A DNA stretch of 32,947 nucleotides from Brevundimonas diminuta ATCC 11568 (GTDB taxonomy: Bacteria > Pseudomonadota > Alphaproteobacteria > Caulobacterales > Caulobacteraceae), in assembly GCF_000204035.1 (NCBI RefSeq), contig NZ_GL883084.1:263031-295977 (forward strand). Reading direction: 5' to 3'. The notes beneath the pieces are model-generated. The model was not told the origin of the DNA, ran no database searches, and was given only the letters and a program-made list of their open reading frames with translations. Shown piece by piece: positions 7,247-16,722 of this stretch (its first letter is position 1; each line of letters opens with the position of its first letter). A program made the position numbers and the translations under genes.

Positions 7247-7324
7247 TGCGCTGTCTGCAAGCGACACCGCGGCAGTTATGCGGTTGAGCCAGTGGCTGAA
7301 GTGAGTTTGACTGGGAGGATGAAC

Positions 7325-8536
7325 ATGTCGCACCGCCTCAAAGCTGCCGCCGTCAGCTTGCTGACGGTTCTGGCGCTGGGAGCGTGCGGCACCCTGCCAA
7401 GGGACACCGCGCCGATCCGATTGGCGGACACCGCCCTGAGCCGGGACGTTGATCCCCGCCTGGACCTGGAAGATGCCGCCGCCCTGGAGGCGCTGGGAGC
7501 GGCGATGGACCGGGCTGTGCTGGCGCACGGTCAGGCGCCGACAATCCTGGCCATCTCCGGCGGTGGCGCTGACGGCGCATACGGCGCGGGCGTCCTGACG
7601 GGTTGGAGCGAACGGGGAGATCGTCCGGCGTTCGATCTCGTCACGGGCGTCAGCACCGGAGCCCTCACGGCCCCCTTCGCTTTCCTCGGCAGCGATTGGG
7701 ACGACGAGCTCCGGGCCGCATACACCAGCGGCCAGACCGAAGGGCTCCTAAGCTGGCGCAGCCTGAACGCTCTGACGGCGCCCAGCCTGCTGAGTCCTCG
7801 CATTCTGTCCGACCTGGTGAACACGCACGTTACTCCCGAGCTCCTGAGGCGCGTCGCTGAAGAGCATGCCAGCGGCCGGCGCCTCCTTGTGGTGACGACG
7901 AACCTGGATGCGGAAGCGGCGGTCATCTGGGACATGGGGCAGATCGCGACGCAGGGCGATGCCAATGCACTCGCGCTGTTTCGCCAGGTCCTGCTTGCCT
8001 CGGCCAGCATTCCGGGTGTCTTCCCCCCGGTGCTGATCGCGACGGTCCAGAAGAACGGAACCATCGTGCGCGAGATGCACGTTGATGGGGGTGTCACGGT
8101 TCCTTTCCTGGCGAGCCCGGGCGGGCCGGTCACGGCGGCCCTGGAGCACTCAGGCAGGGACGACGGGGTTGCAGGTCGCGTCTTCATCATCATCAACGGT
8201 CAGGCGGGGCGGCAGAATGCGGTGACATCCGGCCGCATCTCCGCGATCCTGGGCCGCGCCTACATCACGTCGAGCAAGGCCGCCACGGCCCGAGAACTTG
8301 CCGCCGCGGTCACATTCGCCGGCGCGAACCACCTCGAATTGTTCATCACGGATATCCCCGAGGGGGCAGACTCGTCGAGCCTCGATTTCGACCAAGCCGC
8401 CATGACCTCGCTGTTCGAACTTGGCCACCGGAGAGGGCTGGAAGGAGATGCCTGGCGGGCGCCCGACGGCGGCCAAGCGGCGAGCGATGATGGGTCCGCC
8501 GAGCAGCTCCCGGGGCTGCCGGATGCGGCGCCGTAA
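7325..8536 (+). CDS. Patatin-like phospholipase lipoprotein
   Basis: A 403-residue predicted lipoprotein and acyl hydrolase. The signal peptide MSHRLKAAAVSLLTVLALGAC ends in the lipobox ALGAC with Cys21. The patatin fold shows the glycine-rich oxyanion segment SGGGADGAYGAG (78-89), the nucleophile elbow GVSTG (Ser110) and the DGG motif of the catalytic Asp (HVDGGVTVPF), so the Ser-Asp dyad is complete. Start choice: GGAGG at 7314-7318 is 6 bases before the ATG at 7325; it directly abuts the ATG at 7319, and the frame opening at 7292 lacks a site. The gene is divergent from the efflux repressor and may share its control. It would act on lipids at the envelope; the substrate is unknown. Confidence 0.9.
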   Translation: MSHRLKAAAVSLLTVLALGACGTLPRDTAPIRLADTALSRDVDPRLDLEDAAALEALGAAMDRAVLAHGQAPTILAISGGGADGAYGAGVLTGWSERGDRPAFDLVTGVSTGALTAPFAFLGSDWDDELRAAYTSGQTEGLLSWRSLNALTAPSLLSPRILSDLVNTHVTPELLRRVAEEHASGRRLLVVTTNLDAEAAVIWDMGQIATQGDANALALFRQVLLASASIPGVFPPVLIATVQKNGTIVREMHVDGGVTVPFLASPGGPVTAALEHSGRDDGVAGRVFIIINGQAGRQNAVTSGRISAILGRAYITSSKAATARELAAAVTFAGANHLELFITDIPEGADSSSLDFDQAAMTSLFELGHRRGLEGDAWRAPDGGQAASDDGSAEQLPGLPDAAP

Positions 8537-8606
8537 AGGCTGTGGCGAACAACGACGCGCGCCTCAACTTGACGCGCGCATCGGGAACGCCCCGCCGTCG
8601 CATCAC

Positions 8607-8840
8607 CTAAGCGCCGTAGCCGACAATCGCCTTGGTTTCGAGGAAGGCTTCGAAAGCGTAAGGGCCCCATTCGCGGCCGTTGCCTGACTGTTTGAAACCG
8701 CCGAAGGGGGCGTTCAGGTCCATCTGGGCGCCGTTCAGGACCACCTGGCCGGCGGACAGGCGCAGGCCGATCTCGCGGGCTTCTTCGACAGTCCCGGCCT
8801 CGACATAGGCGCCCAGGCCATAGGGCGTGTCTTCAGCCAA
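8607..8840 (-). pseudogene. Aldehyde dehydrogenase, C-terminal remnant
   Basis: About 75 residues at the end of a minus-strand frame match the C-terminus of an NAD(P)-dependent aldehyde dehydrogenase: EDTPYGLGAYVEAGTVEEA, then LSAGQVVLNGA, APFGGFKQSGNGREWG and AFLETKAIVGYG. These are family hallmarks of the last helix-strand region. The catalytic Cys and Glu, the NAD-binding fold and about 400 residues are absent. Upstream of roughly 8840 the frame no longer resembles the family although it stays open to 8915. The gene has therefore been cut by a rearrangement and cannot be functional. The intact relative should lie elsewhere if this is a duplication scar. Confidence 0.85.
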
Positions 8841-8868
8841 CGGCAACACGCCCGTCGTGATGTCTTCG

Positions 8869-8976
8869 GGAGAACAATACACCTGGGCGCGAGGGCAGCT
8901 CACGCTTCCGGGCAAGCGGCTCTACATCACTGGCCGGACACCTTTGCGCTACGACTTGAACCTGGCTTTCGGCTGA
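8869..8976 (+). pseudogene. Possible C-terminal tail of an outer-membrane protein
   Basis: A plus-strand frame ending at the TGA 8974-8976 reads YTWARGQLTLPGKRLYITGR followed by TPLRYDLNLAFG. Alternating polar and hydrophobic strands leading to a terminal aromatic-rich strand resemble the end of a TonB-dependent receptor or other beta-barrel. It starts exactly where the aldehyde dehydrogenase homology fades, as expected for two genes joined by a deletion. The fragment is short, so this is a weak call. Confidence 0.25.
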
Positions 8977-9181
8977 CCCCAATCTGGCGGCTCACCATTC
9001 GGTGGTGCCGACCGAGTCGGTCCGTCCGTTTTCAAGCCATAGGGCGTGCCTGTTCTTGGCACCGCGCAGACATGGTCCAAAAATTCTCGCGCGACCTGTA
9101 ACCTTGAAGAGTTGCAGAAGCACTGCAGCGTCGGTGTTACAGTTAACTTTTCTTAAAGCATTGAGTTTACCTAAGATTTCT

Positions 9182-9230
9182 TCAGGCTACGAATCTGAGG
9201 GTCGGACGTTCGAATCGTTCCGGGCGCGCC
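9182..9230 (+). pseudogene. tRNA-Arg(ACG) 3' half, attachment-site remnant
   Basis: The sequence folds as the 3' half of a tRNA. The anticodon stem TCAGG/TCTGA surrounds the loop CTACGAA with anticodon ACG (9189-9191). A variable loop GGGTC, a T-arm GGACG-TTCGAAT-CGTTC and an acceptor strand CGGGCGC with discriminator G and CC follow. No matching GCGCCCG acceptor strand or D-arm is present upstream, where the DNA is AT-rich. Such 3' halves are left at the end of elements that integrate into tRNA genes. It lies 130 bases before a serine recombinase. It cannot yield a tRNA alone. Confidence 0.8.
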
Positions 9231-9359
9231 GCGCTGGATGAGAAACCGAACAGTGCAGCACCTTGGCGTAGGGAAAGCCGTCGTCAACTCTCCGCCCCAC
9301 TCAGCATCTTGCTTTTTTCACGGTGAGCGAAACCCTGTACGTTTTGGACAGGACGATAG

Positions 9360-10652
9360 ATGATGCGTGCGGCAATCTACGCTCGATACTCGTCGGATTT
9401 GCAGAACCCTAGGTCCATCGAGGACCAGCTTTCAGTTTGCCGACGGCTCGCCGAGCGACATGGCTTCACGCTGGTCGCTTCGTTCGAAGACGCTGCTTTG
9501 TCTGGAGCTTCAGTAGCGAATAGGCCGGGCTTCGCCGCGCTCATGAAGGCAGCGGAAGAGCGAGCTTTCGACCTAGTTGTCTGCGAAGCGCTCGATCGCC
9601 TATCCAGATCGCAGGCCGATGTGAGCGCAGCGTTCGAAGATCTACGATTCTATGGGGTGGGGATCCACACCATTTCGGAGGGAGCCGTCTCAGAGCTCCA
9701 TATCGGCTTAACCGGCACGATGAATGCCCTCCAACTCCGCGAGATTGGGCGCAAGACGAAGCGCGGCCTACAAGGCGTGGCGAGTGCGGGCCGCCACACC
9801 GGTGGACGCGTCTACGGCTACTCCCTAGACCGGCGCCTCGACGATCGCGGGGAACTGATACGCGGTTTGCTTGCGATCAACCCCACCGAGGCCGAGATCG
9901 TTCGCCGGATCCTGAAAGCATATGCTGCCGGGCAATCCCCACGTAGCATTGCCTCTGACCTCAACGCCGAGTCCATCCCCGCTCCAGGGGGCAGCTACTG
10001 GAACGCCTCAACCATCAACGGCAACGCGCGACGCGGCAACGGCATCCTTCACAATGAGCTCTACCGAGGTGTCCTGGTCTTTGGGCGACAGACCTGGGTG
10101 AAGGACCGAAGGACCGGCAGGCGGCACGCTCGGGACGGAGACCCCTCCGAAATCATTCGGACGCCCGTCCCTCACCTTCGCATCGTATCGGATCGCCTTT
10201 GGCGCAGAGTGCGAAAGGCCCATACAGCGCTCGCTCGGGAGGCCGAGGAGGGTTCACACAGAACGGTCCGGCCAAAGCACCTGCTTTCTGGCCTCATGCG
10301 CTGCGGCGCGTGCGGAGGGCCCCTAATCCGCTCCGGTTCTGGGGTACGATTTATATGCTCCTGGCGCCGCGAGAGAGGCGTATGCGCAAACGGTCGTAGC
10401 GTGCCAGGCCTATTGGTCGAGGCAGCATACGCAGAAGGTCTTGAACGTCTGCCGGCCAACAAGGCTAGGGAGACGCTCAGGGTTCATCTTGCAAACCTTA
10501 GAGCCTCGGATGGCGGCGGACGACCGCCGCTAGAAGCCCTCCGTCTAGTCCGTGAACTCACCGCGTCCGTCGTCGTAACGCCCCTTGAGGAGCGGGGCCG
10601 CTTTGCATTCGACGTCCGGTGGCTGGATGAGACGGCACTCCCAACATTGTGA
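9360..10652 (+). CDS. Serine recombinase / integrase (resolvase-invertase family)
   Basis: A 430-residue DNA recombinase. Residues 3-150 are the catalytic resolvase domain: YARYS holds the nucleophile Ser11, followed by SIEDQ, DAALSGA, RPGF, CEALDRLSR and the QLREIGRKTKRGLQG helix. Residues about 155-290 fit the Recombinase domain (GRVYGY, then EAEIVRRILKAYAAGQSPRSIA). A zinc-ribbon CGACGGPL with later cysteines follows near 315-350, and a helical tail closes the protein. The size is at the small end for large serine integrases but the domain order is complete. AGGA lies 6 bases before the ATG at 9360; ATG 9363 is an alternative. It sits between two tRNA 3' halves, consistent with a mobile-element integrase. 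Confidence 0.93.
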   Translation: MMRAAIYARYSSDLQNPRSIEDQLSVCRRLAERHGFTLVASFEDAALSGASVANRPGFAALMKAAEERAFDLVVCEALDRLSRSQADVSAAFEDLRFYGVGIHTISEGAVSELHIGLTGTMNALQLREIGRKTKRGLQGVASAGRHTGGRVYGYSLDRRLDDRGELIRGLLAINPTEAEIVRRILKAYAAGQSPRSIASDLNAESIPAPGGSYWNASTINGNARRGNGILHNELYRGVLVFGRQTWVKDRRTGRRHARDGDPSEIIRTPVPHLRIVSDRLWRRVRKAHTALAREAEEGSHRTVRPKHLLSGLMRCGACGGPLIRSGSGVRFICSWRRERGVCANGRSVPGLLVEAAYAEGLERLPANKARETLRVHLANLRASDGGGRPPLEALRLVRELTASVVVTPLEERGRFAFDVRWLDETALPTL

Positions 10653-10738
10653 TTCCTCCCCTCCCCGCCTGGATTTGCGCGCCGAGCGCTTCCACATGGC
10701 TTCCACGGCTGGATTTCGCGCTTTGAATTTTGGGCAGC

Positions 10739-10770
10739 AAAAAGCCGCTAGACGATTGATCTAGCGGCTT
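10739..10770 (-). terminator. Intrinsic terminator downstream of tRNA-fMet fragment
   Basis: The 11-base stem AAGCCGCTAGA/TCTAGCGGCTT (10742-10770) has a 7-base loop. On the minus strand it is followed by a T run, just after the 3' end of the tRNA-fMet remnant, so it looks like that tRNA's own terminator. The plus-strand side is also T-rich (ATTTGTTT), so it could also stop transcripts from the recombinase gene. Confidence 0.8.
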
Positions 10771-10777
10771 ATTTGTT

Positions 10778-10825
10778 TGGGTGCGGGAGCAGGATTTGAA
10801 CCTGCGACCTTCAGGTTATGAGCCT
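10778..10825 (-). pseudogene. tRNA-fMet(CAT) 3' half, attachment-site remnant
   Basis: Read on the minus strand, AGGCTCATAACCTGAAGG gives the anticodon arm with CAT. It is followed by the T-arm GCAGGTTCAAATCCTGC and an acceptor end TCCCGCACCCA. This closely matches alphaproteobacterial initiator tRNA from the anticodon stem to CCA. Homology stops abruptly at 10825: the 5' half (D-arm and CGCGGGG acceptor) is not present to the right. With its terminator it forms a typical integration-site remnant. An antisense frame over it gives the well-known false protein string DLNLRPSGYEP. Confidence 0.85.
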
Positions 10826-11163
10826 TTAGGCCGATTCCTACGCCATGGTGTCCGGCGGTATCCGTTGACGCGCCCCGACCCTACGATCAAAACCGGCGCG
10901 CTGGACGAAGTTCGCCGTTTCCACGCTCCAACACGCCACAGCGTCCGCCAAATGATTCCGGCGCGCGCATCAGAGGGCAGTGGACCTGGGTCTGTTATCC
11001 CGAGCCCTGGAAAAGTTCAAATCGTCAGCTGGAGCCTGGCAGGAATGAGCCTCCAAATCGTGGATTGCCCCGGTGACGGACAACATGCACGGTTGTCGCC
11101 AGCACTATTCATCGGGCCTCTCCTCGCCCGCGCAATTTTCGCGCGAAACCAAAGAGAAGAGAC
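10826..11163. other. Intergenic stretch between tRNA remnant and HTH gene
   Basis: No gene is supported; overlapping open frames on both strands have unnatural composition. A GC-rich hairpin CGCGC-AATTTTC-GCGCG at 11129-11145 lies 18 bases before the HTH gene and could be an operator or a leader hairpin. An AGAGAAGAG purine run just before the ATG at 11164 serves as ribosome-binding site. Confidence 0.4.
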
Positions 11164-11415
11164 ATGTCGCAATCCAACCCGAGAGCCATCCAACTGCTGC
11201 GCACCGCTGAAGCAGCCGAACTGTTGGGCCTGTCCGGCAGGACGCTTGAAAAACACCGGACCTACGGAACGGGCCCCGTCTATCGCAAACTCGGCGGCAG
11301 AGTCGTCTACGATATCGCCGATCTCCAGGTTTGGGTCGACAAGGGGCGTCGCGCCTCAACCTCAGACTTTGGCACGGATACGGTCTACCCTGCCAAGCGC
11401 ATGACGCGGAAATAG
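11164..11415 (+). CDS. Small excisionase/AlpA-like helix-turn-helix protein
   Basis: An 83-residue DNA-binding protein. Residues 12-60 match the MerR-like HTH_17 type: LLRTAEAAELLGLSGRTLEK, then GTGPVYRKLGGRVVYDIADL and QVWVD. Proteins of this type act as excisionases or as small regulators in alphaproteobacterial integrative elements and plasmids. The Lys/Arg-rich tail (PAKRMTRK) is typical of the group. No transfer, replication or partition genes accompany it here, so it looks like a stranded piece of a mobile element whose end may be the nearby tRNA-fMet half. Confidence 0.8.
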   Translation: MSQSNPRAIQLLRTAEAAELLGLSGRTLEKHRTYGTGPVYRKLGGRVVYDIADLQVWVDKGRRASTSDFGTDTVYPAKRMTRK

Positions 11416-11784
11416 CCAAGTCAAAGCTGAGATGGCGCCCCGTGGTTTGGGTAAATCCAACCCGAACCACGGGCTATAATCTTCGCCCCTATCGGTCGGC
11501 GATTCGCAAATGCGCCAAGAGCATACGTAATCGGGCAGTACTGCGAAAAGGCCCCCTGAGGTTTTGATTGTTGAACCGCGCCGCCCTGGTAAGACGACGT
11601 TGGCGACAACGTGGTCAAGATGGTGCTTCTGAGTGAATTTTCCGCAATCATTAACGCGTGAAAGCGAACGGCGCAGTCGGGGCTAAAGACGTTCCGGTCT
11701 AACCTCGGCCCTGACCTGCATCCTGCGCAACACTCCAGAGAGATGACGATAGAGAGAAGTAATTAGGGAATGTATCACTTATAA
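11416..11784. other. Intergenic stretch with a long hairpin
   Basis: No gene is supported. The main feature is the inverted repeat at 11439-11473 (separate entry), followed directly by TATAAT (11475-11480) without a matching -35. The remainder up to the SDR stop is comparatively AT-rich, with no T-tract terminator evident for the SDR gene. Confidence 0.4.
11439..11473. repeat. Long inverted repeat / hairpin after HTH gene
   Basis: Arms CCCGTGGTTTGGGT and ACCCGAACCACGGG (14 bases, one mismatch) flank a 7-base loop. It begins 24 bases after the HTH gene stop. No T run follows, so it is either a factor-assisted terminator or a protein-binding site of the former mobile element. Confidence 0.65.
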
Positions 11785-12645
11785 TCAATAAAAACGGTTC
11801 AACACCGTTGGAGATCGAGCAAATACTTCTTCTGGTACGAAGTAGTCTGCTAATAATTCATCTGCCGGGTTGTGAGCATACGGTGAAAAGTCCGTTACGC
11901 CCTCTTCGCGAAGTACCTCTTCATCAATAAAGAAGTTGCCCGTGCAGGATCGCGACGGCTTCTTGAAAATCGCGTAGGCGGCGTCGGCTACAATCTCCGG
12001 TTTGCGCGGCGCCCCCCGCTCCGTGCCGATGACATTGCGGACTGCCGCCGTATCGATGGCGGTTAGGGGCCAGAGCGAATTCACGGCGATGCCGCTCTCA
12101 GCAAATTCACCAGCATGGCCCAAGGTGCACAGGCTCATGTTGAACTTGGCGATGGTGTAGGCCACGTGGGGCGCAAACCACTTCGCCTGCATATCGAGCG
12201 GCGGAGACAGGTTAAGGACATGGGGATTCTCTGCCGCGACCAAAAATGGCGCGGCGGCGCGGGTGCAGAAGAATGCTCCCCGACCGTTGATCTGATCCAT
12301 CAGGTCATAGCGCTTGGCATCGGTCGCGGCGGTGTCCGTAAGCGAAATCGCGCTGGCGTTATTCACCAGTATGTCGATCCCACCGAAGGTGTCGGCCGTT
12401 TTCTTCATAGCCGCCGCGATCTGATCTTCGAAACGAACGTCGCCGATAATGGCGAGACTCTTTCCACCCGCCGCCTCGATCTCCGCCGCAGCGGTGAAAA
12501 CCGTTCCTGGCAATTTGGGATGAGGCTCGGCGGTCTTTGCGAAGATCGCCACGTTGGCGCCGTCTCGCGCCGCTCTCAGCCCGATGGCCAGACCGATCCC
12601 GCGTGATCCGCCGGTGATAAATAGCGTCTTGCCCTTGAGATCCAT
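11785..12645 (-). CDS. SDR oxidoreductase, HSDL2-like
   Basis: A 286-residue short-chain dehydrogenase with the N-terminal NAD(P)-binding motif TGGSRGIG (11-18), NNAS (95-98), and catalytic Ser147, Tyr163 and Lys167 (YTIAK). The segment KTAEPHPKLPGTVFTAAAEI and the string NLSPPLDMQAKWFAPHVAYT are characteristic of the hydroxysteroid-dehydrogenase-like 2 (HSDL2) group, whose substrates are poorly defined but are thought to be lipid-like. It is transcribed divergently from a TetR gene 70 bases away, so that regulator probably controls it. Cytosolic. Confidence 0.9.
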   Translation of the reverse strand: MDLKGKTLFITGGSRGIGLAIGLRAARDGANVAIFAKTAEPHPKLPGTVFTAAAEIEAAGGKSLAIIGDVRFEDQIAAAMKKTADTFGGIDILVNNASAISLTDTAATDAKRYDLMDQINGRGAFFCTRAAAPFLVAAENPHVLNLSPPLDMQAKWFAPHVAYTIAKFNMSLCTLGHAGEFAESGIAVNSLWPLTAIDTAAVRNVIGTERGAPRKPEIVADAAYAIFKKPSRSCTGNFFIDEEVLREEGVTDFSPYAHNPADELLADYFVPEEVFARSPTVLNRFY

Positions 12646-12693
12646 AACGCCCCCTTCCTGTCCACTCTGGACACCTACTCTTCGTTCTATATG

Positions 12694-12708
12694 CTACCTA
12701 TCAGTAGG
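12694..12708. promoter_or_regulatory. Candidate TetR operator in divergent promoter
   Basis: CTACCTATCAGTAGG contains the palindrome CCTA-TCAG-TAGG and overlaps the ribosome-binding site of the TetR gene. It resembles a site in front of another TetR gene at 22811-22826. Short, so tentative. Confidence 0.35.
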
Positions 12709-12715
12709 AGACATC

Positions 12716-13333
12716 ATGGTCCAGCCGGAATCCCCCTGGAAGCCGAGACACGATCGTTCGAAGGAACGAGATGCCAAGCGCGAAGCGGTGCTGCTCGCGG
12801 CGGCGAGCGCATTCAATGAGAACGGCTTCCACAACACGTCGCTGGACGAGATTGCGGCTCGGCTGAATGTCTCTAAACCGACAGTCTACTATTATGGGGT
12901 CAGCAAGGAGGCCTTGCTTTCGGCTTGCTATCTCGCCGCGCTGGGTCTGCTCGACGATGTGACGCAGCGTACCGGACCGCAAACCGCGACAGGGGAATCC
13001 CGGCTCTGGATTCTGATCGTGGCTTATGCCGAAGCCATTCTATCGGTCTATGGCCGATGCCTTACACGAGTTCCCGACAATAGCCTCTCAGCGCCTTTGC
13101 GTGAGGAAGTTCGTCGCCTGAAACGCACGGTGGATGATCGCATCCGCGCTGTCCTGTCCGATGGCGCATCCGACGGATCTCTGAGGCCGACAGACCCCAA
13201 GCTAACCGCGTTCGCTATTGCCGGAGCCCTGAATGCGGCCGCTCTTTGGTTTGAGGACGACGGGCCTCATTCACCGAGGCAGATCGGCGAGCACTATGCA
13301 GATCTTTTCACAAACGCCTTGAGATCGACCTGA
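12716..13333 (+). CDS. TetR-family transcriptional regulator
   Basis: A 205-residue regulator. The HTH region is residues 22-65 (KREAVLLAAASAFNENGFHN, then LDEIAARLNVSKPTVYYYGV). The C-terminal helical domain is of the kind seen in acyl-CoA-responsive TetR proteins, but the ligand is not evident. The ATG at 12716 is preceded by AGGAG at 5 bases; the longer upstream frame to 12554 runs through the divergent promoter and the SDR coding sequence and is not real. It heads an operon with an SDR and an enoyl-CoA hydratase, and faces the HSDL2-like SDR. Confidence 0.92.
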   Translation: MVQPESPWKPRHDRSKERDAKREAVLLAAASAFNENGFHNTSLDEIAARLNVSKPTVYYYGVSKEALLSACYLAALGLLDDVTQRTGPQTATGESRLWILIVAYAEAILSVYGRCLTRVPDNSLSAPLREEVRRLKRTVDDRIRAVLSDGASDGSLRPTDPKLTAFAIAGALNAAALWFEDDGPHSPRQIGEHYADLFTNALRST

Positions 13334-13361
13334 CGGTCACCTCCCACATCTTGGAGCCGAT

Positions 13362-14153
13362 ATGAAACTGACTTCCTTTGATTTCCCAGTAGCGGCTGTC
13401 GTCACAGGCGGCGCCTCTGGGCTAGGAGAAGCTGCGGCTCGCTCCCTCGCCGCACGAGACGTCAAAGTTGCGATATTCGACATGAACGCCGAGCGGGGCG
13501 AACGCATTGCGGGGGAGATTGGTGGTGTTTTTTGCAGGGTGGACGTCACCTCCGACGCGGAAGTCGACGCGGCGTTCGAAACGGCGCGCGCTGTACATGG
13601 ACAAGAGCGGATCCTGATCAATTGCGCCGGTATCGTTTCCGGAGCCAAGACCGTTAGCCGTAACCGCGAGACCGGCGCCCTGTCTCATTTCCCACTCGAA
13701 ATTTTTGATCGGACGATCCGAGTAAACCTCATCGGGACGTACCGTTGCATCGCCAAAGCAGCCGTTGGAATGGCGACGCTCGCTCAGCTGGAGGATGGGG
13801 AGCGCGGGATTATAATCAACACGGCCTCCGTGGCCGCTACCGACGGCCAGATTGGCCAGGCAGCCTACGCGGCGTCAAAAGCGGGCGTCGTGGGCCTGAC
13901 GCTTCCGGCGGCTCGCGACCTCGCGGGCGAAGGAATTCGGGTCAACACCATTCTTCCCGGCATATTCCAGACGCCGATGATGGCCAGTCTTCCAGCAAAT
14001 GTTCAGGATTCCCTGGCCGCTAACATCCCATTTCCAAAGAGACTCGGCATTGGTGAGGACTACGCCTCGCTGGCGCTTCACATCGTCGAAAATGTCTATC
14101 TTAATGGCGAATCCTTCCGTCTAGACGGCGCGGTGCGCCTGGCTCCGCGCTGA
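13362..14153 (+). CDS. SDR 3-hydroxyacyl-CoA dehydrogenase, HSD10-like
   Basis: A 263-residue SDR. The cofactor motif TGGASGLG lies at 15-22, an acidic residue after strand 2 (FDMN) favours NAD, NCAG is at 87-90, and the catalytic residues are Ser156, Tyr169 and Lys173 (YAASK). The insertion ETGALSHFPLEIFDRTIRVN, the TASVAATDGQIGQAAY segment and the LPGIFQTPMM stretch are those of type II 3-hydroxyacyl-CoA dehydrogenase (17-beta-HSD10). It would oxidise 3-hydroxyacyl-CoA to 3-ketoacyl-CoA with NAD. GGAG precedes the ATG. It lies 28 bases after the TetR gene and 3 bases before the hydratase that would supply its substrate. Confidence 0.9.
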   Translation: MKLTSFDFPVAAVVTGGASGLGEAAARSLAARDVKVAIFDMNAERGERIAGEIGGVFCRVDVTSDAEVDAAFETARAVHGQERILINCAGIVSGAKTVSRNRETGALSHFPLEIFDRTIRVNLIGTYRCIAKAAVGMATLAQLEDGERGIIINTASVAATDGQIGQAAYAASKAGVVGLTLPAARDLAGEGIRVNTILPGIFQTPMMASLPANVQDSLAANIPFPKRLGIGEDYASLALHIVENVYLNGESFRLDGAVRLAPR

Positions 14154-14156
14154 CCG

Positions 14157-14936
14157 ATGGAACGATTTCAAACCCTCATTGTGGAGCAGGAAGCCGGCTA
14201 TCTGGTCGTCCGAATTCATCGACCCGAAGCGCTCAATGCGCTGAACAACCAGGTCATGGATGAACTCACCGCCGTATTATCCGCCGCAGAAGCGGACGAC
14301 GAAGTGCACGCCGTTGTGCTGACTGGATCCGATAAAGCGTTCGCAGCCGGCGCCGACATCAAGGAAATGGCGTCTAAAACCTACGCCGAGGCTTTTCGCG
14401 AGAATTTCGTGACCCGCAACTGGGAGGCTGCGGCGCGATTTCGCAAACCCATCATCGCCGCTGTCGCCGGCTTTTGCCTCGGCGGCGGTTGTGAACTCGC
14501 AATGATGTGCGACATCATCATCGCTGCCGAAACAGCCAAGTTCGGTCAGCCTGAAATCAACCTTGCAGTCACGCCGGGCGGCGGCGGCACTCAGCGCCTC
14601 ACTCGCGCGATAGGTAAGGCGAAGGCGATGGATATGGTGCTGACAGGGCGCATGATCGGCGCGGTCGAAGCGGAGCGCGCAGGTCTCGTCGCGCGCATTA
14701 CACCTCTTGATACCTATCTTGCAGAAGCCAAGAGCATCGCCGAGCGGATCGCGCGCCAGTCGCCCTTGGCGGTATTGATGAACAAGGAGATGGTCGATGC
14801 GGCTTTTGAAACAACGCTCGCCCAAGGCGTCCTGTTTGAACGACGCCTGTTTCACTCATTGTTCGCCTTTGACGATCAGACTGAAGGGATGGCGGCTTTC
14901 ATCGAGAAAAGAGCGCCCAACTTCGTCGGGCGGTGA
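14157..14936 (+). CDS. Enoyl-CoA hydratase (crotonase family)
   Basis: A 259-residue crotonase. HRPEALNALN starts the fold, AGADIKEM (65-71) gives one half of the oxyanion hole and GFCLGGGCELAM the other. Glu113 and Glu133 are the two catalytic glutamates of true enoyl-CoA hydratases, and TQRLTR follows as usual. The loop before it reads TPGGGG instead of the more common IPGAGG, which is minor. It would add water to trans-2-enoyl-CoA, giving the substrate of the SDR encoded 3 bases upstream. Operon: TetR - SDR - hydratase. Confidence 0.94.
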   Translation: MERFQTLIVEQEAGYLVVRIHRPEALNALNNQVMDELTAVLSAAEADDEVHAVVLTGSDKAFAAGADIKEMASKTYAEAFRENFVTRNWEAAARFRKPIIAAVAGFCLGGGCELAMMCDIIIAAETAKFGQPEINLAVTPGGGGTQRLTRAIGKAKAMDMVLTGRMIGAVEAERAGLVARITPLDTYLAEAKSIAERIARQSPLAVLMNKEMVDAAFETTLAQGVLFERRLFHSLFAFDDQTEGMAAFIEKRAPNFVGR

Positions 14937-15031
14937 GATTCGGCACCCGTTTCTCAGCGCCGAGTTACTCTCGATTAGATATATTCCTACACAAAACTCA
15001 TAACCGCCGCTTGTTGCGGTGAGGAGATCTC

Positions 15032-15796
15032 ATGAAAATACTCGTCCCGGTGAAACGGGTGATCGACTCCAACGTCAAGGCTCGCGTGAAAGCGGACCAG
15101 ACCGGCGTCGACCTCGCCAACGTCAAAATGAGCATGAACCCCTTCGACGAAATCGCCGTCGAAGAGGCTGTTCGGCTCAAGGAAGGCAAGGAGCATCACG
15201 CCGCAGGCACGGCGACCGAGATCGTCGTCGTCTCCATCGGCGCGACCCAGGCCCAGGAAACCATCCGCACCGCCCTGGCCATGGGCGCGGATCGCGGCGT
15301 CCTGGTGCAGTCGGACGCGGACCTGGAGCCCCTGGCGGTGGCCAAACTGCTGAAGGCCGTCGTGGACGAGGAGAAGCCCGACCTGGTGCTGATGGGCAAA
15401 CAGTCGATCGATGGCGACAACAACGCCGTGGGCCAGATGCTGGCCGCCCTGCTGGACTGGCCGCAAGCCACCTTCGCCGGCAAGCTGGCGATCGAAGACG
15501 GCAAGGCTGTGGTGACGCGTGAAGTCGACGGCGGCCTGCAGACGGTGGCGGCGACGCTGCCCGCCGTGGTGACGGCGGACCTGCGCCTGAACACGCCGCG
15601 CTACGCCTCCCTGCCCAACATCATGAAGGCCAAGAAGAAGGAGATCGCCGTCAAGGCGGTCGCCGACTACGGCGTCGACACGGCCGACCGCCTCAAGGTT
15701 CTGAAGGTGACGGAGCCGCCGAAGCGTTCGGCGGGCGTCAAGGTCGCCGATGCGGCCGAACTGGTTTCCAAGCTCAAAGACGCAGGGGTTCTGTAA
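15032..15796 (+). CDS. etfB: Electron transfer flavoprotein beta subunit
   Basis: A 254-residue ETF beta subunit. It starts [20 protein letters not shown] and shows [48 protein letters not shown], and the recognition-loop region [20 protein letters not shown] that docks with acyl-CoA dehydrogenases. It binds AMP and pairs with EtfA to accept electrons from dehydrogenases and pass them to ETF-ubiquinone oxidoreductase. GAGGAG lies 5 bases before the ATG, after a small hairpin (ACCGC/GCGGT). Strongly GC-rich third positions mark it as core-genome DNA compared with the genes just before. Confidence 0.97.
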
Positions 15797-16722
15797 TGGC
15801 CGTTCTCGTCATCGCAGATCACGACGGCTCGGCCGTTCGCGACACCACCCACAAGACCGTGACGGCCGCACTGGCGCTGTCGTCCGACGTGGACGTCTTG
15901 GTTCTGGGCAAAGGCGCGCAAGGCGTGGCCGACGCCGCCGCCAAGATCGCCGGCGTGCGCAAGGTGCTGCTGGCCGAAGGCGACGCCGTCGCCCACGGCC
16001 TGGCCGAGGCCGTCGAGGCCACCGTCCTGCCGCTGGCCGGGAACTACGACGCCATCCTGACCCCGGCCAACACCGACGGGAAGAACTTCGCCCCGCGCAT
16101 CGCCGCCAAGCTGGACACGGCGCCGATCTCGGACATCGTCGAGGTCGTCTCGGCCGATACCTTCGTGCGCCCGATCTATGCGGGCAACGCGCTGGAAACG
16201 GTGCAGTCGGCCGACGCCAAGAAGGTCATCACCGTGCGCCCGACGGCCTTCGCCGCCGCCGCCGAAGGCGGTTCGGCCCCGGTCGAGAGCGTCGCTGCGG
16301 GCGAAGCGCCCAAGACCGCCTTCGTGTCTGAAGAAATGGTCAAGTCGGACCGCCCCGAACTGGGCGCCGCCAAGATCGTCGTCTCGGGCGGCCGCGCCCT
16401 GGGCTCGGCCGAAGAGTTCGCCGCCATCATGGACCCCCTGGCCGACAAGCTGGGCGCTGCCGTCGGCGCCAGCCGCGCGGCGGTCGACGCGGGTTACGCC
16501 CCCAACGACTATCAGGTCGGCCAGACCGGCAAGGTCGTGGCGCCGGGCCTGTACATCGCCATCGGCATCTCGGGCGCCATCCAGCACCTGGCCGGGATGA
16601 AGGACTCCAAGGTGATCGTCGCGATCAACAAGGACGCCGACGCCCCGATCTTCCAGGTCGCCGACTACGGCCTGGTCGCCGACTACAAGACCGCCGTGCC
16701 GGAACTGATGAAGGAAGTATAG
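15796..16722 (+). CDS. etfA: Electron transfer flavoprotein alpha subunit
   Basis: A 308-residue ETF alpha subunit. The N-terminal domain begins [20 protein letters not shown]. The C-terminal FAD domain has [24 protein letters not shown], the FAD-binding segment [20 protein letters not shown], and [19 protein letters not shown]. The ATG shares one base with the stop of etfB (TAATG), ensuring equal synthesis. The window encodes at least three full acyl-CoA dehydrogenases plus two short homologues that would need this carrier. Confidence 0.97.

Follow-up and report, generated by a model that had tools for sequence, protein, structure and literature searches.

A large and little-noticed family of serine integrases appears to use the end of the gene for initiator tRNA as the insertion site for islands, and the serine recombinase in the DNA analysed here is, as judged from its sequence, a worn member of the large serine integrase group that sits at tRNA-fMet. 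The window, i.e. the whole stretch of 32,947 nucleotides that was analysed, comes from Brevundimonas diminuta ATCC 11568 (own genome, G000) and corresponds to G000:C3:263031-295977. As stated in the original prediction, the recombinase is located between two opposed tRNA 3' halves, and both the coordinates and the spacing given there proved correct (Table 1). We consider it likely that the stretch from 8.9 to 10.8 kb is the wreck left by several integrations, in which serine and tyrosine elements would have been stacked at tRNA-fMet before a fusion with tRNA-Arg DNA took place.

Table 1. Features in and around the disturbed region, with positions in the window and the evidence on which each assignment is based.
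Feature	Position	Strand	Evidence
Aldehyde dehydrogenase (ALDH) C-terminal fragment; left edge of disturbed region	8619..8867	-	Pfam Aldedh positions 386-461
Putative remnant, end of element integrated in tRNA-Arg gene	9057..9181	+	Similarity to G033:C169
tRNA-Arg(ACG) 3' half, probably foreign type	9182..9230	+	48/49 nt to G026 tRNA-Arg; 39/48 to own tRNA-Arg
GGCGCGCC, 8-bp word shared at fusion of Arg half and recombinase segment	9223..9230	.	Continuation in G023; other Arg 3' ends
Large serine recombinase, 430 aa, tRNA-fMet group	9360..10652	+	Pfam domains; alignment gaps; genus homologues at tRNA-fMet
Putative attL-side arm of tRNA-fMet tyrosine elements	10655..10775	-	Aligns past intact tRNA-fMet in G122, G092, G031
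tRNA-fMet(CAT) 3' half, cut near anticodon loop, tyrosine-integrase type junction	10776..10825	-	50/50 nt to G000:C8:5540-5589
Putative end of tRNA-fMet island, part common to G005; continues to the right	10826..15488	+	99.87% to G005
HTH_17 helix-turn-helix gene at island end	11164..11415	+	PF12728

The genome-wide search for intact genes gave a divided answer, as the fMet half equals part of the own intact tRNA-fMet, whereas the Arg half is unlike the own tRNA-Arg. The fMet block (10778-10825, minus strand) is identical in 48/48 nt to positions 30-77 of the own gene, and the identity reaches 50/50 nt (10776-10825) if two bases past the tRNA end are counted. The Arg block agrees in 48/49 nt with a tRNA-Arg(ACG) from another species (G026), and as the match to the own gene (C3:527679) is only 39/48 nt the half is probably of outside origin, its source lying elsewhere than in the own tRNA-Arg; that it is a duplicate of the latter is ruled out by an identity of 81%. 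The best ungapped scores in the window were 48 for the fMet probe and 46 for the G026 Arg probe, as compared to 12 or less in shuffles (10 per probe) that permute 2-mers and keep the dinucleotide content roughly, whereas the own tRNA-Arg probe reached 21 versus 13 or less; a chance match is thereby ruled out for the fMet half (48 vs 12 or less). Counting against the assignment, ARAGORN found zero tRNA genes in the window, and cmscan over the whole window at E ≤ 1 listed no tRNA, the sole Rfam listing being mir-278, which we rejected as a real RNA. Applied to two 111-base stretches, the tRNA model yielded 14.0 bits (E 1.4) and 17.3 bits (E 0.17), i.e. values below the 29-bit cut-off, as expected because the blocks are halves and not whole genes.

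The recombinase contains the Pfam domains PF00239 (Resolvase), PF07508 (Recombinase) and PF13408 (zinc ribbon), all over the cut-off, and the stretches YARYSSDLQN and EALDRLSRS, which we take to be parts of the catalytic domain, align with its relatives without gaps. Together with its twin in G023 (96%) it lacks about 90 aa between the zinc ribbon and the C-terminus, in two stretches of 64 and 24 aligned residues that, by alignment, are at the position expected for the coiled coil. This coiled-coil region is needed for direction control in large serine integrases; the window recombinase is probably either a leftover that no longer works or an enzyme whose control has loosened. The gene converges on the 3' end of tRNA-fMet, but its coding sequence stops before the tRNA, 125 bp from the fMet 3' half, and has lost the tRNA-encoded tail. 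In the tree described below, the window copy and the G023 twin group with eight other fMet-linked Brevundimonas copies with a local support of 100, FastTree flagging a long-branch join at this grouping.

The assignment to a tRNA-fMet group is based on a census of homologues. In the genus sample 131 genomes were searched and 30 homologous loci fetched, and in 21 of these (about 42% identity or more) the gene converges on the 3' part of tRNA-fMet, the tRNA being intact in 18 and cut in three (the window, G092 and G122). One further locus (L092, about 40% identity) converges on another CAT tRNA, and the eight most distant homologues (33-39%) have no tRNA at the gene end. A scan of named genomes yielded at least 578 relatives, the best 80 of which were analysed: 53 are located at tRNA-fMet (42 intact, 11 cut), three at another CAT tRNA (L186, L206 and L220), three run off the contig end and 21 have no tRNA at the gene end, so that an intact CAT tRNA is found at the gene end in 45 of these best 80. 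By sequence, the other CAT tRNA in L186, L206, L220 and L092 is of the elongator Met or Ile2 type, which suggests a target switch inside the family.

The integrase gene is directed towards the tRNA, and most members have final codons that correspond to the tRNA read in antisense. Among the 21 genus loci at tRNA-fMet, 15 have a coding sequence that, as read, extends into the tRNA and terminates there in GFEPATFRL or a tail close to it, the remaining six being the window, G023 and four that are broken or unread. As the integrase gene extends into the tRNA, these last codons are host-encoded once the element is integrated. These findings bear on the possibility that the recombinase is an unrelated passenger, its proximity to tRNA-fMet being a coincidence at an integration hotspot. 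The window gene, which is separated from the tRNA by a tyrosine-type arm and does not reach it, would suit such a passenger, but 21 of the 30 genus homologues and 53 of the best 80 named ones at tRNA-fMet, the coding sequences that run into the tRNA, and the far-end repeats and inverted arms described below render it very improbable, and on the two counts a chance passenger was rejected.

The distribution of the target was followed on a FastTree tree of 102 rows, of which 25 are from the genus sample of 30 and 77 from the named set of 80; L076, L087, L091, L097 and L100 (duplicate or broken) and the three Brevundimonas among the named loci were omitted. The 68 fMet-labelled rows need 20 changes, the mean for shuffled labels being 28.7, i.e. 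the fMet label is clustered, yet it does not form a single clade. Many rows that lack a tRNA have a near-twin that possesses one. When 12 hand-picked pairs of this kind were compared, the DNA of 11 diverged inside the tRNA-derived core and that of one pair (L198/L162) ahead of it. Six near-twins of fMet integrases (L176, L225, L154, L177, L158 and L192) have a motif resembling CAACC(A/G)...TTGCG past the tRNA core, which varies in L158, L177 and L192; these ends may represent different targets, elements that are stacked, or junctions that resemble att sites. In L193 (Paramesorhizobium deserti) a 5'-truncated tRNA-fMet is found at the integrase end and a complete copy 115 bp beyond. Finally, in L020/L059 (G003:C102) a serine integrase without its N-terminal part is joined to what looks, by eye, like an RHS-type repeat gene.

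Where far ends of the elements were found, they share 9-21 nt of the tRNA end, and as this repeated core is the end of the tRNA-fMet gene integration leaves the tRNA whole. In the genus a far end was found in 6 of the 21 stretches with a recombinase on the fMet side, G007 with its other tRNA being excluded from the count. Copies of 21 nt are located downstream of tRNA-fMet in G073 (4.4 kb), G016 (20.1 kb) and G115 (32.3 and 42.3 kb), and a terminator-like sequence is preceded by a 13-nt copy in G003 (5.5 kb) and G102 (27.6 kb) and by a 12-nt copy in G131 (22.5 kb). The 21-nt copy also occurs 7.9 kb from a second fMet gene in G115 and, with one mismatch, 6.6 kb from a second fMet gene in G073. 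The other 15 stretches, including the window, have no far end inside the fetched DNA. Among 11 named genomes a far end was identified in three, i.e. Gluconacetobacter diazotrophicus PA1 5 (about 15.5 kb), Paracoccus kondratievae (35.8 kb) and Ancylobacter tetraedralis (19.7 kb), and none near the gene in the other eight. G. diazotrophicus has two tRNA-end copies 66 bp apart, the nearer of which shares only 9 nt with the integrase-side tRNA end, CCCCCGCAATAC. Six of the nine joined attP sites have 12-bp inverted-repeat arms around the core that were matched in 2 to 72 of 2000 shuffles, the inverted repeat being no better than in shuffles for G003, G102 and P. kondratievae.

In the six joined genus sites the reading frame of the integrase is closed by a tail encoded by the element itself, which is of similar length throughout and alike within each class, e.g. 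GFEQNLTPLFSFTA and GFEQNLTPVLSFTV. As attP would be located inside the integrase gene, integration would swap this conserved element-encoded tail for a tRNA-encoded one, from which we infer that the swap may be of significance for the enzyme. As a tentative scheme, it is possible that the widespread, mostly alphaproteobacterial group has the initiator tRNA as its fixed target, that a core of up to 21 bp rebuilds the tRNA, that attP lies in the integrase gene, and that the exchange of a GFEQNLTPLFSFTA-like tail for the host's GFEPATFRL could signal to the enzyme that the element is integrated and help to set the direction of recombination.

The same tRNA is the target of a separate family of elements with tyrosine integrases, which cut tRNA-fMet at the anticodon loop, so that their far end carries a 3' half that measures about 45-48 nt. 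Thus, two unrelated enzyme families would use one tRNA at different cut points. In four of six cases (G031, G023:C192, G122 and G092) the fMet 3' half adjoins a tyrosine integrase that is 86-100% identical to that of G031; the window and G005 have the half without an integrase. The arm next to the half in the window contains a terminator hairpin at about 10739-10771 and two GTGGAAGC repeats 11 bp apart (10699-10706 and 10688-10695), and likewise, in G031, G122 and G092, a terminator and a single or double GTGGAAGC repeat come after the intact tRNA of the opposite end. G122 and G092 display the complete order, with an intact tRNA first, then the tyrosine element, the 3' half and the serine integrase, and stacking of the two families may account for the element order seen in the window. 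In the named set all 11 cut tRNAs (G092 among them) begin at CTCATAACC, and the serine integrases beside them end in the tail described above. Past the half, nine of these loci (8/10 without G092) contain a relative of the tyrosine integrase with 33-97% identity, at 1.9 kb in L218 and otherwise within 0.4 kb; L174 and L208 have a cut tRNA and no tyrosine-integrase match in the locus. The terminator of the tyrosine elements, in some cases together with their arm-like repeats, was also observed past tRNA-fMet in G033:C31, G020, G028 and G009, with no full integrase near, and G020:C1 contains integrase fragments at 373-643.

Islands inserted by tyrosine integrases in tRNA genes are a familiar kind, and insertion at tRNA ends is usually carried out by enzymes unrelated to the serine integrases, which are themselves valued tools. 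A group that uses tRNA-fMet, a gene that differs very little among these bacteria, would offer ready landing sites, and it would also account for the islands and broken tRNA pieces that amass behind rRNA operons here. Serine recombinases in tRNA genes are called rare in a source that describes Mycobacterium AICEs in tRNA-Leu and phage phiRSM1 in the 3' end of tRNA-Ser (PMC3218068). These systems likewise integrate in tRNA genes, but by that description they concern other tRNAs and other bacterial groups, whereas we find a large group at tRNA-fMet in what are, by record titles, mostly Alphaproteobacteria. For Mycobacterium abscessus, an overlap with tRNA or tmRNA genes is reported for 16 of the 23 attB sites of tyrosine type, and the cited passages name no tRNA for the six serine attB sites (PMC10654092). 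The streptococcal serine integrases of the rumA type are, according to the passages cited, site-specific and flanked by direct repeats of 2-21 bp, one of which is inside the integrase gene, just as observed here, but their target is a protein gene and not a tRNA that is restored on integration (PMC4701971); site-specific serine-recombinase IMEs, including the rumA type, are described in part of a review as disrupting dispensable genes (PMC5704250). Phage-related sequences in tRNA genes of Sinorhizobium meliloti nearly all have tyrosine integrases in the account cited (PMC11476347). Such islands share the tRNA as target, and the anticodon-loop cut with a 3' half at the far end, as observed in our data, fits the right and left neighbours of the recombinase, but they leave the serine recombinase itself unaccounted for. 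As both serine recombinases in tRNA genes and repeats within the integrase gene have been published, the kind is already known, and what appears new relative to the literature searched is the choice of tRNA-fMet, how large the group is and that the tRNA encodes the tail. No description of a tRNA-fMet serine-integrase family was found in that literature, and databases of the TIGER/Islander type may list such elements.

To the right of the fMet half, positions 10766-15488 are 99.87% identical over 4,725 bp to G005:C171:1-4724 from another species, up to the end of the G005 contig, and in G005 the same DNA ends in the fMet 3' half, which is then followed by a different terminator. As the same DNA is found at the fMet half in both genomes, the right side is an island that has inserted into tRNA-fMet in each of the two species. 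A homologue of its HTH_17 gene is located within the tyrosine element of G092 (56% identity over 68 aligned aa), and the cargo of the island comprises genes of fatty-acid type and a second etfBA pair (15029-16710), which is 94% identical to the copy at C5:2122047. No tyrosine integrase was detected near 10826 by a PF00589 search from C3:273855 to 634119 or in the 4.7 kb of G005, and no right boundary of the island was found. There is no far-end copy of the tRNA-fMet 3' end in about 19 kb to the left, and no tRNA was found in C3:295000-394999 (partly masked). The only intact tRNA-fMet of the assembly is located on an rRNA contig of 5,603 bp (C8) that ends just after the tRNA. As the ends of C3 and C5 resemble the flanks of C8, the latter probably adjoins the right end of C3, and the intact tRNA-fMet would be about 448 kb from the island. 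Contigs that break at the rRNA-linked tRNA-fMet might hint at an assembly or binning artefact, but such an origin is hardly credible, since the window is interior to a contig of 721,717 bp and its left and right parts recur independently, with the same junctions, in G005 and G023.

On the left side, positions 9057-9229 match, with 72% identity, the equivalent end of an island of 17 kb that is located in tRNA-Arg in G033:C169, and the 3' part of tRNA-Arg is present in two copies per contig, 11-40 kb apart, in G026, G021, G034, G003 and G033. Thus, tRNA-Arg as well as tRNA-fMet is a recurrent target in the genus, which supports this part of the original interpretation. The view that an ordinary tRNA-Arg 3' flank lies beside the recombinase had to be corrected. 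In the window the Arg half runs directly into GCGCTGG, whereas 8/8 other printed tRNA-Arg 3' ends continue with A (a pattern match in L008 is no tRNA and was excluded), and the recombinase segment of G023, which is 93% identical over 9223-10825, continues in an inverted repeat centred on GGCGCGCC with no tRNA. The palindrome in G023 and the unusual flank of the Arg half thus point to a fusion at the 8-bp word GGCGCGCC.

Two islands that abut, or one element that used both sites, had been considered as origins of this arrangement. The former holds insofar as there is an island on the right, shared with G005, and a G033-like tRNA-Arg end on the left, but it missed the serine group at tRNA-fMet; the latter found no support. 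Based on our findings we propose that a serine element in tRNA-fMet may have been struck by a tyrosine element, and that a deletion would have joined the tyrosine arm (10655-10775) to the end of the truncated serine integrase gene; the same fusion of arm and serine gene is present in G023, where the tRNA has remained intact. The tRNA would have been split at 10825 by a second element targeted to fMet, which today lies on the right and is near-identical in G005, the remnant of a tRNA-Arg element may have been joined at the left via recombination at GGCGCGCC, and a later rearrangement would have parted the island from any intact tRNA-fMet.

Instead of such a stack, the window might represent the attP junction of a single circular element that was inserted at another chromosomal site, with the arm and the serine recombinase at one end and the HTH and catabolic genes at the other. 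The right part in G005 ends at an fMet flank and the left part in G023 starts at an intact fMet gene, which resembles the two ends of one element, and there is no intact fMet gene near the right side. Nevertheless, we regard this as rather unlikely, because G005 (66% complete) is without a close copy of the recombinase, its only Recombinase-domain match being distant, and because at the fMet 3' half of G023 a tyrosine integrase is found and not the HTH end.

The disturbed region begins with the ALDH fragment, the rest of this gene being absent from the regions covered, i.e. tblastn with a full ALDH returned only residues 393-474 (window, C3:235002-394999 and contig ends). In the search for an empty site, the probe 7300-8900 gave scattered homology in 71 of 81 genomes and no clear orthologous site, and among the plasmid matches listed for 8600-11800 (20 of 311) all hit ALDH or HTH parts only. 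Further to the left, positions 558-1568 of the window encode, by reading, a TIR-domain-like protein in a low-GC stretch, which adjoins a tyrosine integrase located outside the window on its left side (C3:261757).
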